This document shows, piece after piece, positions 4,577-24,724 of a stretch of DNA of 64,000 nt (the stretch's first letter is position 1; each line of letters begins with the position of its first letter). Source of the stretch: an uncultured Flavobacteriaceae bacterium. GTDB taxonomy: Bacteria; Bacteroidota; Bacteroidia; Flavobacteriales; Flavobacteriaceae. The notes under the pieces were generated by a model. The model was not told where the DNA came from. It saw nothing but the letters and a program-made list of their open reading frames with translations, and searched no databases. Made by a program: the position numbers and the translations under genes. The DNA lies in the NCBI GenBank assembly GCA_947494695.1, contig CANLWB010000002.1, positions 248,001 through 312,000 on the forward strand. Direction: 5' to 3'.

Positions 4577-5452
4577 TTATTTATTTCCATTTGCTGGTTT
4601 TGTATCTAAAGTCTTTATCCCAAAAGCTATAATGACCCCTCCAGTAAAGAACATAACAAGACTATAAACGGCAGGAGCGATGGCATAGTTATCATTCATT
4701 AATATTCCTGAAGCAATGGCAATAGCCATGGTGCCATTTTGAATTCCGGACTCTATCGAAATCGTTAACGATTGAGCTAAATTTAATTTTGCAATTTTTG
4801 CAGTTGCTAAACCGACGAGCATGGTTGTAATATTTAATGCTAAAGTTGTTAACCCTGCTTGTTGTAAATAAGGAATGAGATCTTCTTTTTTCTTTATTAC
4901 CAATCCCAATATGACTAAAAACAAGACAGCAGCAGAAGCAATTTTAACGGGTTTATTCATTTTATCCGCAAAAGTAGGTTTGGCTCTCTTTAATACCATA
5001 CCAAGGGAAACAGGAATGATTACGATTACAAAAATTTGAATTACCGTTTGCAATTTGTTGATTTGGATCATGTCGTCGGCATCTAAAAATTGGGTTAATG
5101 CAAAATCTACCACAAAAGGAATGGTGAAAATAGTAATTAAGCTATTGGCTGTCGTTAATGAAATGGACAGGCTAGCATCTCCTTTTGCCAAATAGGTGAT
5201 TAGGTTAGATGTTGGGCCACCAGGGCAAGCCGCCAAAATCATTAAACCAATGGCAATGTCTGTTCCTACATCAAATATGGAGATTAATATATAAGCAATA
5301 ATTGGCAACAAGATAATCTGATTCATTAGCCCCACAATTATTGCTTTTGGATGCTGAAATAATCGAATAAAATCATTTTTAACAAGAGACAAGCCCATGC
5401 CAAACATGATGATAATTAATGATACTGCCAGAAAGATTGTACCTATATCCAT
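4577..5452 (-). CDS. Bile acid:sodium symporter (SBF/BASS) family transporter
   Basis: This 291-residue inner-membrane protein has about nine or ten hydrophobic helices. The two crossing-helix motifs of the BASS/SBF fold are clear: ACPGGPTSNLITYLAKGD (residues ~74-91), for sodium and substrate binding, and ESGIQNGTMAIAIA (residues ~234-247). Family members import organic anions such as bile acids, pantoate or keto-acids with Na+; the substrate here is unknown. There is no helix-rich extension, so it is the minimal bacterial form. It stands alone, with an inverted repeat (5518-5551) in its upstream region. Confidence 0.85.
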   Translation of the reverse strand: MDIGTIFLAVSLIIIMFGMGLSLVKNDFIRLFQHPKAIIVGLMNQIILLPIIAYILISIFDVGTDIAIGLMILAACPGGPTSNLITYLAKGDASLSISLTTANSLITIFTIPFVVDFALTQFLDADDMIQINKLQTVIQIFVIVIIPVSLGMVLKRAKPTFADKMNKPVKIASAAVLFLVILGLVIKKKEDLIPYLQQAGLTTLALNITTMLVGLATAKIAKLNLAQSLTISIESGIQNGTMAIAIASGILMNDNYAIAPAVYSLVMFFTGGVIIAFGIKTLDTKPANGNK

Positions 5453-5517
5453 TGTTCTTAGTTTTTTTTAATTATTAAAAACGTTTTATTTTTTAGGCTG
5501 TTGTTATATGGAATTTA

Positions 5518-5551
5518 TGAAATCCCATTATCCATTATTAACGGGATTTCA
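5518..5551. repeat. Inverted repeat upstream of the SBF transporter
   Basis: TGAAATCCC (5518-5526) and GGGATTTCA (5543-5551) form a perfect 9-bp stem with a 16-nt loop, 66 bp upstream of the transporter start. It could be a hairpin in the 5' leader or an operator. The rest of the 5453-5875 gap holds only the second copy (5818-5870) of the degenerate repeat also seen near 1501. Confidence 0.5.
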
Positions 5552-5875
5552 GAACGTCTCTATAAGGATTAGCAAATACCTCTAGTCGCATTTGACAGTA
5601 TTTGTCCATGTCTCCATTTTAGAATTTTATTTGGCCACAACAAAGGGCCATGTGTTCTCGAACGCGTATATCCATGTCATTAATGACTCCTAATTTAAAG
5701 GATTTATAGTTGTTTTGAAAGTATTTATTGCTATATGAGTATATACGCCTCAAGTCATGCTAAACGGAAGATGGTAAAACATTTTTAAATCAAATGATTC
5801 TCAGTATTCTACAAGGGCTCCCAGTTTTTGAGGCCTTTATTATCTTTCGATTTTTTTTTTAAAGCATAACGTTAA

Positions 5876-7189
5876 CTATCTAAATCTTTCCGGGTGTGGA
5901 AATTCATGAACAGGTAATAGTTGAGTAGAAATATAAGATTCGTATAACCTTTCCCTTGTAGGTGAACTTAAATAGAAAGGAGTCGAGTTTTTAAAAACGT
6001 TCTCTAAATAATCATAATAGCTGTCAAAGCTATGATAGTCCTCTGCTATAGCTTGTACCAATCTTAGTTTGCCATCATTAATGGTATTTGCTATGTTTTC
6101 AGAAATTAAATCATCTGGTATAGTTGGAATGACAATGTCTTTTGAGCTTCCGTCAAAAATAAATTCAATATTTAAGTTTAAATCAGAATTATCTAATCTT
6201 ATCCTGCCAACTTCAAATCCTTCATGTCCAGAAAACGTTAGATTGCTATTTAAGAATGAAGAAGATATTGTTTCATCGGGGACATTTACAGTAGCGGGTG
6301 GGGTGCCTAAACCGAATAAAGAGTATTTGGGAAAGCTTAAAGAATAAGAAGTCTTATAAAATATATTTGGAAATGCGTAGTAATGATTTCCTCCAAAACC
6401 AAATGTTGGGATATAGGTATCATAAATTTGATGTCCCGAAATTTGATTAAAAAGCTTTTCGTTTTCATAGCCATACATAAGTAAAAGCGGTAAGTTTTCA
6501 GGTCTATTGGTTGAAAGTTGCTTGGATTCTATTTGGTCATTTTTTAAATCAAATTCATTTAATTCAGAAAAACCATCAATGCTATTTGTTAGAATATATT
6601 TATAACTGTCGTTAAGAACATCATTCGGATCGTAATATTTAACAAAAATATTTTCTGGGCCTAGATTTTGGTTGAATTTAGGAGAATAATGTCCTGATAA
6701 TTTGTTATTTATTTGAGTCATGGCGTATCCATGTCCTTTGGCATTTAAAATATGATCGTTCAATTCCTTTGTTTGAATATCGACCAAAGATGTACTTAAA
6801 GGAAAGCTCCCAGGTTGAAATACTATGAGTTCTCCTAGGGCTGCTTTAGTTATGTTTGAATACACATACAGGCTATAAATGGCGTTATCAAACGATGAGA
6901 TAAACGTAAGTGTAAATGACGTATTATCGTTAAATTCTTGTTTTGAATAAAGAGAGATGGTGTCTTCAATGTCTTTATAAGTTTTGGAATCTAAGAAATT
7001 TCCAGACGCATCAGACAGGATAACATGGAATGTTGTCTCAGGGTTTACAAAATGACTTGGGTATTCAATTGAAAATACTTTTTCTCCAAGGTCTACATCA
7101 TTTTCATCTGGATCTATGGAGTCGTTTACATCACCTTTTGAGCAAGAACAGGCAACTATTAGAATGATTAAAAATTTGAGAATTTTCAT
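5876..7189 (-). CDS. Lipoprotein of unknown function
   Basis: The 437-residue product starts MKILKFLIILIVACSCSKGD, a lipoprotein signal with a lipobox at VACS/C, followed by an acidic linker rich in Asp (DSIDPDENDVDLG) as found on surface-exposed Bacteroidota lipoproteins. The rest looks beta-rich, with many Ser, Asn and Tyr residues, and contains no motif I recognise. A helical C-terminal part (residues ~360-430) precedes the end PHPERFR. It is a single gene, 247 bp from the metK terminator. It may be a cell-surface binding protein, but nothing in the sequence names a ligand. Confidence 0.65.
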   Translation of the reverse strand: MKILKFLIILIVACSCSKGDVNDSIDPDENDVDLGEKVFSIEYPSHFVNPETTFHVILSDASGNFLDSKTYKDIEDTISLYSKQEFNDNTSFTLTFISSFDNAIYSLYVYSNITKAALGELIVFQPGSFPLSTSLVDIQTKELNDHILNAKGHGYAMTQINNKLSGHYSPKFNQNLGPENIFVKYYDPNDVLNDSYKYILTNSIDGFSELNEFDLKNDQIESKQLSTNRPENLPLLLMYGYENEKLFNQISGHQIYDTYIPTFGFGGNHYYAFPNIFYKTSYSLSFPKYSLFGLGTPPATVNVPDETISSSFLNSNLTFSGHEGFEVGRIRLDNSDLNLNIEFIFDGSSKDIVIPTIPDDLISENIANTINDGKLRLVQAIAEDYHSFDSYYDYLENVFKNSTPFYLSSPTRERLYESYISTQLLPVHEFPHPERFR

Positions 7190-7450: not shown

Positions 7451-8704
7451 TTACAATCCAAATACGTCTTTTACCTTATCAACATAATCCAATTTCTCCC
7501 AGGTAAAAAGTTCAACATCAATCGTTTTGCTCTCTCCATTGGGTTGGGTAAATGTTTTAGACACTGTTTCGTTGTTACGTCCCATATGTCCGTAAGCAGC
7601 CGTTTCACTATACATGGGCGAACGCAGTTTTAAGCGATCTTCGATGGCGAACGGACGCATATCAAAAATATTAGATACCTTTTCTGCAATTTCTCCGTCT
7701 GTCATATTAAAAGGACAGGTACCGTAGGTGTCAATAAAGATACCCATAGGCTCTACAACGCCAATGGCATAACTTACTTGTACGAGAACTTCATCGGCAA
7801 CACCAGCAGCAACCAAGTTTTTAGCAATATGACGTGTAGCGTAAGCAGCACTTCTATCAACTTTACTAGGGTCTTTCCCCGAGAACGCTCCACCACCATG
7901 AGCTCCTTTTCCACCATAGGTATCAACAATAATTTTTCTACCTGTTAATCCTGTGTCTCCATGAGGCCCCCCAATAACGAATTTTCCTGTTGGATTGATA
8001 TGGTACTTAATGTCATCATTAAATAGCACCTGAAGTTGTTTTGGTAACTTGGCAACAACACGTGGTATTAGAATCTCTACAATATCTTTTCTAATTTTTG
8101 CAAGCATGGAGTCATCGTCTCCAAAATCGTCATGCTGGGTAGATACGACAATAGCATCAATACGTTGTGGAATATTATCGTCACTATACTCAATAGTTAC
8201 CTGACTTTTAGAATCGGGACGTAAATAAGTAATATCTTTATGTTCTCTTCTTAATTCTGCTAGTTCAATAAGTATTCTATGCGATAGGTCCAAGGCCAAT
8301 GGCATGAAGTTTTCGGTTTCATTGGTAGCGTAACCAAACATCATACCCTGGTCACCAGCTCCTTGCTCTTCTTTACTAGCTCGGTCTACACCGCGATTAA
8401 TATCATCAGATTGCTCATGGATCGCAGAAACCACGCCACAAGAATTACCATCAAACATGTATTCTCCTTTGGTATATCCTATTTTATTTATTGTTTCTCT
8501 AGCAATTTTTTGTACATCTAAATAGGTTTGAGACTTAACCTCTCCAGCAAGAACAACCTGTCCCGTTGTTACCAGAGTTTCACATGCTACTTTCGAATCT
8601 ACATCAAAAGCCAAAAAATTATCGATTAAAGCATCACTAATTTGATCTGCTACCTTGTCCGGGTGTCCTTCAGAGACACTTTCCGATGTAAATAAATATG
8701 CCAT
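7451..8704 (-). CDS. metK: S-adenosylmethionine synthase
   Basis: MetK makes S-adenosylmethionine from methionine and ATP in the cytoplasm. The 417-residue length is normal. Motifs are in the family order: [14 protein letters not shown] (ATP site, residues ~12-25), the first signature [16 protein letters not shown] (~115-130), the nucleotide-binding [14 protein letters not shown], and the second signature [16 protein letters not shown] (~271-286). The start ATG is followed directly by the conserved [13 protein letters not shown]-terminus. The gene stands alone, with a GC-rich terminator downstream and a SAM-II-type riboswitch in its leader, so expression should fall when SAM is plentiful. Confidence 0.98.
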
Positions 8705-8752
8705 AAATAATATTTTATTCGTGATTTGACGATAGCGTCGAAGGAAGTTTAC

Positions 8753-8850
8753 ACTGCCTTTAGCATTTTTTAATTCTGAACTTGTTTCAGAATTTGTACT
8801 ATTCTAAAACGTTTCAGAAGAGGTTGCAATCAGTCAAATCTCTCCTCTTT
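8753..8850 (-). promoter_or_regulatory. SAM-II-type (long-loop) riboswitch upstream of metK
   Basis: Read on the minus strand, the leader holds AAGAGG (8849-8844) pairing with CCTCTT (8823-8818) as P1. Between them lies GAGATTTGACTGATTGCAA, close to the SAM-II core GAUUUAACCGUAUUGCAA. Downstream follows AAATGCTAAAGGCAGTG, like the SAM-II 3' element AUGnAGCUAAAAAGG; its CAGT can pair with ACTG in the P1 loop as the pseudoknot. The linker is longer than in classical SAM-II and contains a 9-bp hairpin (8772-8780/8786-8794), as in the SAM-II_long_loops class known from Bacteroidota. A TATTTTTG -7 element (TAnnTTTG type, 8870-8863) sits just upstream. SAM binding is expected to hide the metK translation start. 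Confidence 0.75.
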
Positions 8851-8919
8851 TTGTTAGTCTGGCAAAAATAAAAAAATAAAAGGAAATGAGTCTTTATTTT
8901 TCATTTTTTAAAACATAAA

Positions 8920-23189: not shown

Positions 23190-24020
23190 TCAGTCCAAAT
23201 AACGAACTTGAGAATGCTCTAATTCAACATCCAGTAGGCACTTTACTAAAGTGGTATGAAAAAGTTGATATGTCATTCTATCTAAAGGGTTTTCAATGTT
23301 TTTCTTATATTTTTCATCACTTGAACCCTTACTTAAGTAATAAGACCCATACTTGGGTAAGGTCAAATTCAATGCACTGTCATTAAAACTGTTTAAATAC
23401 ATCATGCAAATATATACCTCTAACAACAAGTCCCAGTATTCTGTTTCTTTAGCATATTTCTCGATTTCAGACAGTATAACTTCACATATTTTGACCGTTC
23501 TTTCAGAACAATCCTTGGTTAGTTCCCTTTGTCCCATATGTGTTCCAAACATGACCAGATGGGTAACTTGATAGCAATTTTCAACACTTAATCCTTCATT
23601 TTTAATATGCTTATAGATTTCAAAAGCAGCCAGTTCCCAATACCCTTTAGATAAGTCCTGTTTAAAGACATCAAGAATAAAACCTGCTTCCATTAATAAA
23701 GAATCACTAGCGAAGTAATCACGAATATCTTTAGATTCATTTAGAGTTATCGAATTAGGAACTCCCAAAAAATCGAAGATATATTTAAAGCCAAATGTTT
23801 TATTCAGCTTAAATAATTCATGATCTATTTTCTCCGAAATCGTTTTACAGGTTTGAAGATATTCCACAGGTAAATTCGATTTAACCTGATATACATAACA
23901 CAATAAAGAAAATTCCATTGAGGCCTTAATAAATAAACTAAAATCATCAGGATGATATGGATTAAAATGAATACACAATTCATCTATGTATTGCTTTACG
24001 ACTTCTTTTGTTTTATCCAT
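23190..24020 (-). CDS. Helical protein of unknown function, DUF6895-like, next to a Cys-rich peptide gene
   Basis: The start is placed at ATG 24020 (MDKTKEVVKQYIDEL), giving 276 residues. The longer frame to 24125 would overlap the upstream peptide gene and add a non-conserved hydrophobic stretch. The protein is almost wholly alpha-helical, with no signal peptide. A central CYQVTHLVMFGTHMGQ motif recalls the TH-x-x-x-x-TD-x-G motif I associate with DUF6895, an uncharacterised family; this match is from memory and needs a profile search. It follows the peptide gene at 24101-24286 by 80 bp, with a terminator-like hairpin between them. A role in handling or modifying that peptide is an inference. 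Confidence 0.5.
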   Translation of the reverse strand: MDKTKEVVKQYIDELCIHFNPYHPDDFSLFIKASMEFSLLCYVYQVKSNLPVEYLQTCKTISEKIDHELFKLNKTFGFKYIFDFLGVPNSITLNESKDIRDYFASDSLLMEAGFILDVFKQDLSKGYWELAAFEIYKHIKNEGLSVENCYQVTHLVMFGTHMGQRELTKDCSERTVKICEVILSEIEKYAKETEYWDLLLEVYICMMYLNSFNDSALNLTLPKYGSYYLSKGSSDEKYKKNIENPLDRMTYQLFHTTLVKCLLDVELEHSQVRYLD

Positions 24021-24052
24021 GATTATTTTGACTATTTTTTTAATTAAGAAAG

Positions 24053-24092
24053 AAAGAGTACGCAGATATGATATAGAATCCCCGTACTCTTT
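24053..24092 (-). terminator. Hairpin between the Cys-rich peptide gene and the helical protein gene
   Basis: CGTACTCTTT (24083-24092) and AAAGAGTACG (24053-24062) form a perfect 10-bp stem with a 20-nt loop. On the minus strand it is followed by CTTTCTT. It begins 8 bp past the peptide stop, so it should act as a partial terminator giving more peptide than downstream protein. Confidence 0.65.
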
Positions 24093-24100
24093 GCTATTAT

Positions 24101-24286
24101 TTATGAACAAATACAGCAGCACCAAAGGTCTGGATCTCTACCATCTCCGAGACTAATGTTTGGGTAATCTTTAGGATTTGCACTGTGTTTAGATATGTAA
24201 TCTAAAATTGAATCGAAATCGTCAAGACCGTTGGATTTCAAAACTTTTTTTACATCGTCTGGTGAAAATTGTGTTTTTACTGACAT
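24101..24286 (-). CDS. Small peptide with Cys-rich C-terminus (possible RiPP precursor)
   Basis: This 61-residue ORF has two unlike halves. Residues 1-38 look like a charged helical leader (FSPDDVKKVLKSNG, DDFDSILDYISKH). Residues 39-61 are Pro/Gly/Asp-rich and end in GRDPDLWCCCICS, with Cys at 56, 57, 58 and 60. Such a leader plus a short Cys-rich tail is the shape of a ribosomally made, modified peptide precursor. A hairpin and a helical protein gene follow on the same strand. No radical-SAM, lanthionine synthase, protease or ABC transporter gene is adjacent, so the RiPP reading is inference. A metal-binding peptide is the alternative. Confidence 0.5.
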   Translation of the reverse strand: MSVKTQFSPDDVKKVLKSNGLDDFDSILDYISKHSANPKDYPNISLGDGRDPDLWCCCICS

Positions 24287-24724
24287 TTTATTGAATTTTA
24301 TATTATCCTACTCTATTCAAATTGGTTTTTCGGATTCCACCGTAGTAACCGGAATGCAGATGGTAGCTACTAAATCGAATACGTTGCATTAGATTACAAT
24401 ATAAAGTTGAAGAAATGACAGATTGAATTTTAATAAAATGTAATAAGATTCTGATTTTCAGGTATAAAGATATTTATTGTAAGTATAGAAGATGTTTCTT
24501 GCAAAAGCATTGCGCGCATTATGGTATAGTTGCCTAAATTAGGATTTTGTGCTTTTTAAGGTTATAGGTGAAACTAAAACATTTAGTATTTCAATATCAA
24601 AGGTAAAAGCAAAATAGTATATTTGGATGGATACTAAATTGAAATTTAAGACTAACCAACTACGTTTCGTTTATTATATATCATTATCATCAGGCGGTCG
24701 TCTATGGTAAGCAAAAAGTAATAC
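24287..24724. other. Divergent promoter region between the peptide gene and an AraC regulator
   Basis: This 438-bp region serves two divergent genes. A perfect -7 element TATATTTG lies at 24618-24625 on the plus strand, 100 bp before the AraC gene. It is flanked by an inverted pair TTTAGTAT (24582-24589) and ATACTAAA (24631-24638) that could be an operator. No convincing -33 TTG and no other gene are seen. Confidence 0.4.

Follow-up and report, generated by a model that had tools for sequence, protein, structure and literature searches.

Shi et al. (ACS Catal. 2026, as cited in the review PMC13352647) have reported that a member of the DUF6895 family is an epimerase of lasso peptides. The protein P0002 described here belongs to the same Pfam family (PF21836). 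Unlike that system, the peptide–enzyme pair of our locus has no adjoining lasso protease or cyclase, and P0002 matches only a part of the Pfam model. A second point of comparison is the lasso-peptide epimerase MslH, for which two His/Asp pairs were found to be needed by mutagenesis (PMC10406935). Going by this source, MslH carries out acid/base chemistry with its two His/Asp pairs, and DUF6895 proteins have two invariant histidines and two invariant acidic residues. On the contrary, MslH has a calcineurin-like fold with Ca(II), whereas the DUF6895 model is all-helical; the likeness is functional and no sequence kinship is claimed.

The epipeptides (YydF/EpeX) are made from a short linear precursor into which D-residues are introduced by one radical SAM epimerase and no ring enzyme. 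The locus described here would resemble them in its short linear precursor and in a single enzyme introducing D-residues, a ring enzyme being unneeded. The epipeptide enzyme is a radical SAM epimerase, whereas none is found beside P0001, the peptide gene of our locus: the three scanned neighbours, which are also the nearest ones of the pair, encode a cNMP-binding protein, a metallo-beta-lactamase-fold protein, and an AraC regulator, and the remaining neighbour is the DUF6895 gene itself.

Organization of the locus and its DUF6895 protein

The window, that is, the whole stretch of 64,000 nucleotides of flavobacterial DNA that was analysed, contains on its minus strand and in this order a DUF805b RNA, an open reading frame of 61 amino acids, a 10 bp hairpin, and an open reading frame of 276 amino acids. 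The DUF805b cis-regulatory RNA motif (Rfam RF02914, positions 24305–24343) scores 37.0 bits and is thus above the gathering score of 35.6; here it lies ahead of a RiPP-like precursor. The peptide gene P0001 occupies positions 24101–24286 including the stop codon, the hairpin positions 24053–24092, and P0002, the presumed maturase, positions 23190–24020. The first-pass annotation had described the small frame with its WCCCICS end, the hairpin, and the 276-residue helical protein, and all three were found again in that order. The metallo-beta-lactamase-fold gene adjoins the pair on the opposite strand. Neither an exporter nor a protease nor a lasso cyclase (PF00733) was detected among the three neighbouring genes scanned.

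The guess that the 276-residue protein is DUF6895-like proved correct, as P0002 matches PF21836 with an E-value of 8.4e-6 and 25.8 bits (cut-off 23.8). The match spans only residues 144–217, corresponding to profile positions 163–234 of 289. A profile built from 24 other DUF6895 proteins, P0002 excluded, finds P0002 with an E-value of 3.4e-10 at rank 1 of the 563 open reading frames of the window. This independent profile covers only the C-terminal half of P0002 (profile positions 169–293 of 309) and leaves the N-terminal half unmatched, so that with both profiles the match is partial and does not extend over the whole domain. The residues Y150, T153, H154, D197, E201, and H255, which are invariant among 21 aligned proteins including P0002 itself, are kept, and they are also aligned by the profile that never saw P0002. 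The two invariant histidines and two invariant acidic residues would suit a two-base epimerase, as judged from the alignment.

P0002 is very divergent, with a best identity of 18%, an end branch of 4.78, and no supported position in the tree. The protein of 276 amino acids starts at an ATG; an alternative TTG start would give 311 amino acids and span the hairpin. P0002 is present in one of the 12 genomes of its genus, which suggests a recent gain or a wide loss. As single query it finds only itself (1 of 299 Flavobacteriaceae genomes) and nothing among plasmids. Its structure model is of moderate confidence (pLDDT 72.6) and gave no useful match in the fold search, and no sequence of a solved structure is related to it at E ≤ 1. 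The AlphaFold2 model of a relative (locus L029) is confident (pLDDT 91.9), and this protein is predicted to have an alpha/alpha toroid-like fold. Among solved structures, those most similar to it in fold belong to class II terpene cyclases (Foldseek probability 1.00, best E 0.018, TM ∼0.49); nothing was found at E 0.001. Class II terpene cyclases such as MstE and squalene-hopene cyclase thus share the overall fold with the L029 protein at a TM of ∼0.5, whereas identity is only ∼10% and the resemblance is one of fold only.

DUF6895 loci in other bacteria

When 84,980 species genomes were scanned, 43 DUF6895 loci (numbered L) were found; to judge from record titles and tree labels, they come from Bacteroidota, Actinomycetota, Pseudomonadota, Bacillota, Chloroflexota, Cyanobacteriota, Acidobacteriota, and Eremiobacterota. 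By reading the open reading frames and by tblastn among the peptides, a precursor-like small open reading frame was found upstream of the DUF6895 gene in 37 of the 43 loci; this count was made by hand and several loci are near-duplicates, so the 37 cases are not independent. They include L028, which is partial, and L025, which looks frameshifted. In seven Streptomyces-type loci more than 1 kb separates the peptide from the DUF6895 gene downstream, and no precursor-like frame was seen in L030, L037, L043, L048, L050, and L056. Seven plasmid records have a DUF6895 match, and in each of the four that were opened a small open reading frame precedes the DUF6895 gene. P0001 and P0002 as single queries match only themselves in the 299 family genomes; P0001 likewise finds only itself within its own genome. 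The Pfam model detects DUF6895 in 5 of 299 sampled Flavobacteriaceae genomes and in 1 of 395 genomes of a phylum-wide sample, this being the own genome, and a wider profile in 7 of 397 Flavobacteriaceae genomes. One of these seven (G028) was dropped as spurious; its frame reads like a methyltransferase. No relatives were found on viral contigs, and no phages carrying the L029 protein.

In a motif scan, 14 of the 43 loci had radical SAM-like motifs close to DUF6895 and only one had an asparagine-synthetase-like (cyclase-like) motif, so few of the loci look like lasso clusters by their motifs. Genes of the beta-lactamase fold, of M48 peptidases, or of methyltransferases stand beside some of them, and many relatives are accompanied by an extra partner gene of 200–300 amino acids. 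Such a partner is absent beside P0002 and was undetected in the own genome by a search run without a positive control.

Some loci are arranged differently. The DUF6895 proteins of L010 (8568–9590, minus strand), L011 (5440–6624, minus strand), and L063 (255–1301, minus strand) have lipoprotein-like starts and no precursor was seen with them; in L010 and L063 the gene adjoins a permease-like gene. The actinomycete loci L031, L032, L036, L037, L041, L042, L046, L050, and L056 contain two DUF6895 genes with a radical SAM-like motif between them and constitute a separate RiPP-like cluster type. In Lederbergia citrisecunda (L045) near-identical precursor-like frames lie in tandem (5352–5591 and 5647–5877) before DUF6895. 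In Bacillus siamensis and B. velezensis a 59-residue peptide directly precedes DUF6895 (L040, 5760–6909, and L049, 5758–6909), and these loci may offer a model of the family that can be grown in culture.

P0001 ends in LWCCCICS (24104–24127, minus strand), the presumed end of the core, with cysteines at positions 56, 57, 58, and 60 by direct reading. Its leader (approximately residues 7–34, 24185–24268, minus strand) aligns locally with the peptides of L029 (score 59, matched by none of 2000 shuffles), L034 (score 42, none of 2000), and L024 (score 35, 7 of 2000). For the L015 peptide 28 of 2000 shuffles were as good, and for the other 8 of the 12 peptides compared 63 of 2000 or more, which is not convincing; the leader is clearly common to P0001 and three of the twelve. 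A profile of these three leaders, which were picked after their similarity to P0001 had been noticed, ranks P0001 first among the 563 frames of the window (E 0.0011); a profile of all 12 peptides again places it first, at an E-value of only 0.3. Because the leader is homologous to those of other DUF6895-linked peptides, the order of peptide, hairpin, and enzyme is, to judge from these sequences, more than a chance arrangement. The cysteine tail, in contrast, is not shared: adjacent cysteines occur in none of the 26 distinct relative peptides collected, and nine of the 26 have no cysteine at all. P0001 has no family in NCBIfam and only two Pfam matches, both below the cut-off. A core motif spotted by eye, an aromatic residue followed by a hydrophobic run, reached p below 0.05 in only 3 of 23 peptides and was for this reason not counted as evidence.

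The hairpin has an exact stem of 10 bp (AAAGAGTACG/CGTACTCTTT) and a loop of 20 nt. The 83 nt gap between the two genes folds at −18.6 kcal/mol (z −5.79), and none of 200 shuffles is as good. This hairpin is missing from the result of the simple terminator scan, which accepts only loops of 3–8 nt. Folds with z ≤ −2.4 are present in 7 of 10 gaps between precursor and DUF6895 gene as compared to 4 of 26 control gaps, which lie between other genes of the same loci and of the window; a first folding run with a slightly different set of 10 gaps gave 8 of 10. The gap of L026 lacks a hairpin in both runs, and that of L029 lies above the z line in one of them and below it in the other. The hairpin is a probable attenuator.

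The DUF805b RNA ends 18 nt before the start codon of P0001, and in L024 it ends 16 nt before that of the precursor. No such RNA was detected ahead of the L029 precursor, and none reaches the gathering score in L016, L022, L034, and L054. The own genome has one more copy (L073, 1499–1537, minus strand, contig C14), which lies 18 nt before an unrelated open reading frame of 102 amino acids without Pfam match; the RNA is therefore not RiPP-specific. The DNA upstream at L073 resembles that upstream of P0001. Sigma-70 promoter-like sites are no more numerous than in shuffled sequences, and the only Bacteroidota-type −7 element seen lies 319 nt ahead of the P0001 start. The stretch of ∼107 nt between precursor and AraC gene (24572–24678) recurs at ∼70–73% identity in several of the genus's genomes, some of which hold more than one copy. 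Elsewhere in the window, a SAM-II riboswitch (Rfam RF01726, 48.5 bits, 8750–8853, minus strand) lies just upstream of a 417-residue open reading frame (7451–8704, minus strand), which reads like an S-adenosylmethionine synthetase.

Proposed mode of action and alternative explanations

The pairing of the peptide with the DUF6895 enzyme is well supported. We consider it rather probable that the locus is a minimal RiPP unit, in which the 61-mer is the precursor and the DUF6895 protein its modifier, the core is epimerised, the hairpin acts by attenuation, and the DUF805b RNA exerts control. The reading of precursor, hairpin, and partner gene as a RiPP unit is upheld from the first-pass annotation, as a precursor-like peptide is usually encoded beside the partner's relatives, with hairpins recurring in the gaps. 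Not supported are a conserved cysteine tail and the statement that the pair lacks a known modification enzyme next to it: the partner is a DUF6895 protein, and because one member of this family is reported to be a lasso-peptide epimerase, P0002 is likely the modification enzyme of the unit.

We suggest that the helical leader of P0001 would be recognized by the DUF6895 protein, which would then modify the short C-terminal core. Most likely, one or more residues of the core would be epimerised from L to D. One conserved histidine and an acidic residue would remove the alpha proton and a second such pair would return a proton on the other face, a scheme taken from the unrelated epimerase MslH. 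On this reading the core of P0001 is probably epimerised. The hairpin would cause more precursor than enzyme to be made and the RNA ahead of the precursor may control expression. Leader removal and export would be carried out by genes elsewhere, since no such genes are adjacent. Several findings speak against this reading: the strong divergence of P0002 and its unmatched N-terminal half, the missing partner gene, the lack of an exporter or protease among the scanned neighbours, the 8 of 12 peptides that fail to align convincingly with P0001, the weak core motif, and the absence of DUF805b ahead of the L029 precursor.

It is unlikely, though it deserves consideration, that the DUF6895 protein of such a RiPP unit does not epimerise and, for example, cyclises or cross-links the Cys-rich core or serves as a leader-binding scaffold. 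The sole functional statement on DUF6895 in the accessible part of the literature is the one reported lasso-peptide epimerase, and the radical SAM motifs and other enzymes near DUF6895 loci mean that its role could vary; also, four cysteines within the last six residues of P0001 invite cross-linking. On the other side, the invariant histidines and acidic residues fit acid/base chemistry, and the tail has no cysteine in many relative peptides. The same four cysteines could speak for a metal-binding or redox mini-protein to which the neighbouring helical protein is unrelated, and so could the metallo-beta-lactamase-fold gene beside the pair. This alternative, which had been offered along with the RiPP reading, loses ground because the leader and not the cysteine tail is conserved; in fact, the leader is homologous to those of DUF6895-linked peptides devoid of cysteine (e.g., L029 and L024), and we consider it very improbable.

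That the pair is a decaying remnant, acquired and without function by now, would agree with the long branch of P0002, the missing partner gene, and the occurrence in a single genome of the genus; as both frames are open and the RNA, the hairpin, the leader, and the C-terminal invariant residues are intact, we find this quite improbable. Least probable of the readings considered is a lasso peptide with cyclase and protease acting in trans. The DUF6895 enzyme reported in the accessible literature acts on a lasso peptide, and the tail of P0001 could be read by eye as a Gly start with an Asp seven residues further. A cyclase-like motif, however, is a rarity among the DUF6895 loci, and no PF13471 lasso peptidase domain was detected in the own genome at E ≤ 1 by a search that was positive in 6 of 14 control genomes; for the latter reason we do not file the unit as a lasso peptide.

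Implications for the DUF6895 family

As the same pairing occurs in unrelated bacteria, the preferred RiPP unit is probably one of a family of natural products that has been little explored. Known already, going by the accessible part of the literature, are the DUF6895 family and one reported activity. No description of stand-alone RiPPs composed of precursor, hairpin, and DUF6895 gene was found in the open-licence literature, which is weak evidence of absence.

We know of no DUF6895 activity outside the lasso setting. As a tentative proposal, to which we give somewhat less than an even chance, DUF6895 would mark RiPPs other than lasso peptides that form a broad and mostly undescribed group in many phyla, with a precursor that carries a leader, a hairpin for attenuation, and an all-helical toroid epimerase working without radical SAM chemistry. 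The locus in the window would be its smallest form, yielding a peptide with a Cys-rich C-terminus and D-residues, and the orphan DUF805b RNA would control such peptides in flavobacteria. If this is true, one stand-alone enzyme of ∼280–320 residues could put D-amino acids into ribosomal peptides with no need for radical chemistry or ring enzymes. Peptide engineering would profit from this, and unannotated precursors could be found simply beside DUF6895 genes. In addition, the Rfam RNA DUF805b would be tied to a kind of gene, and its role would thereby become testable.
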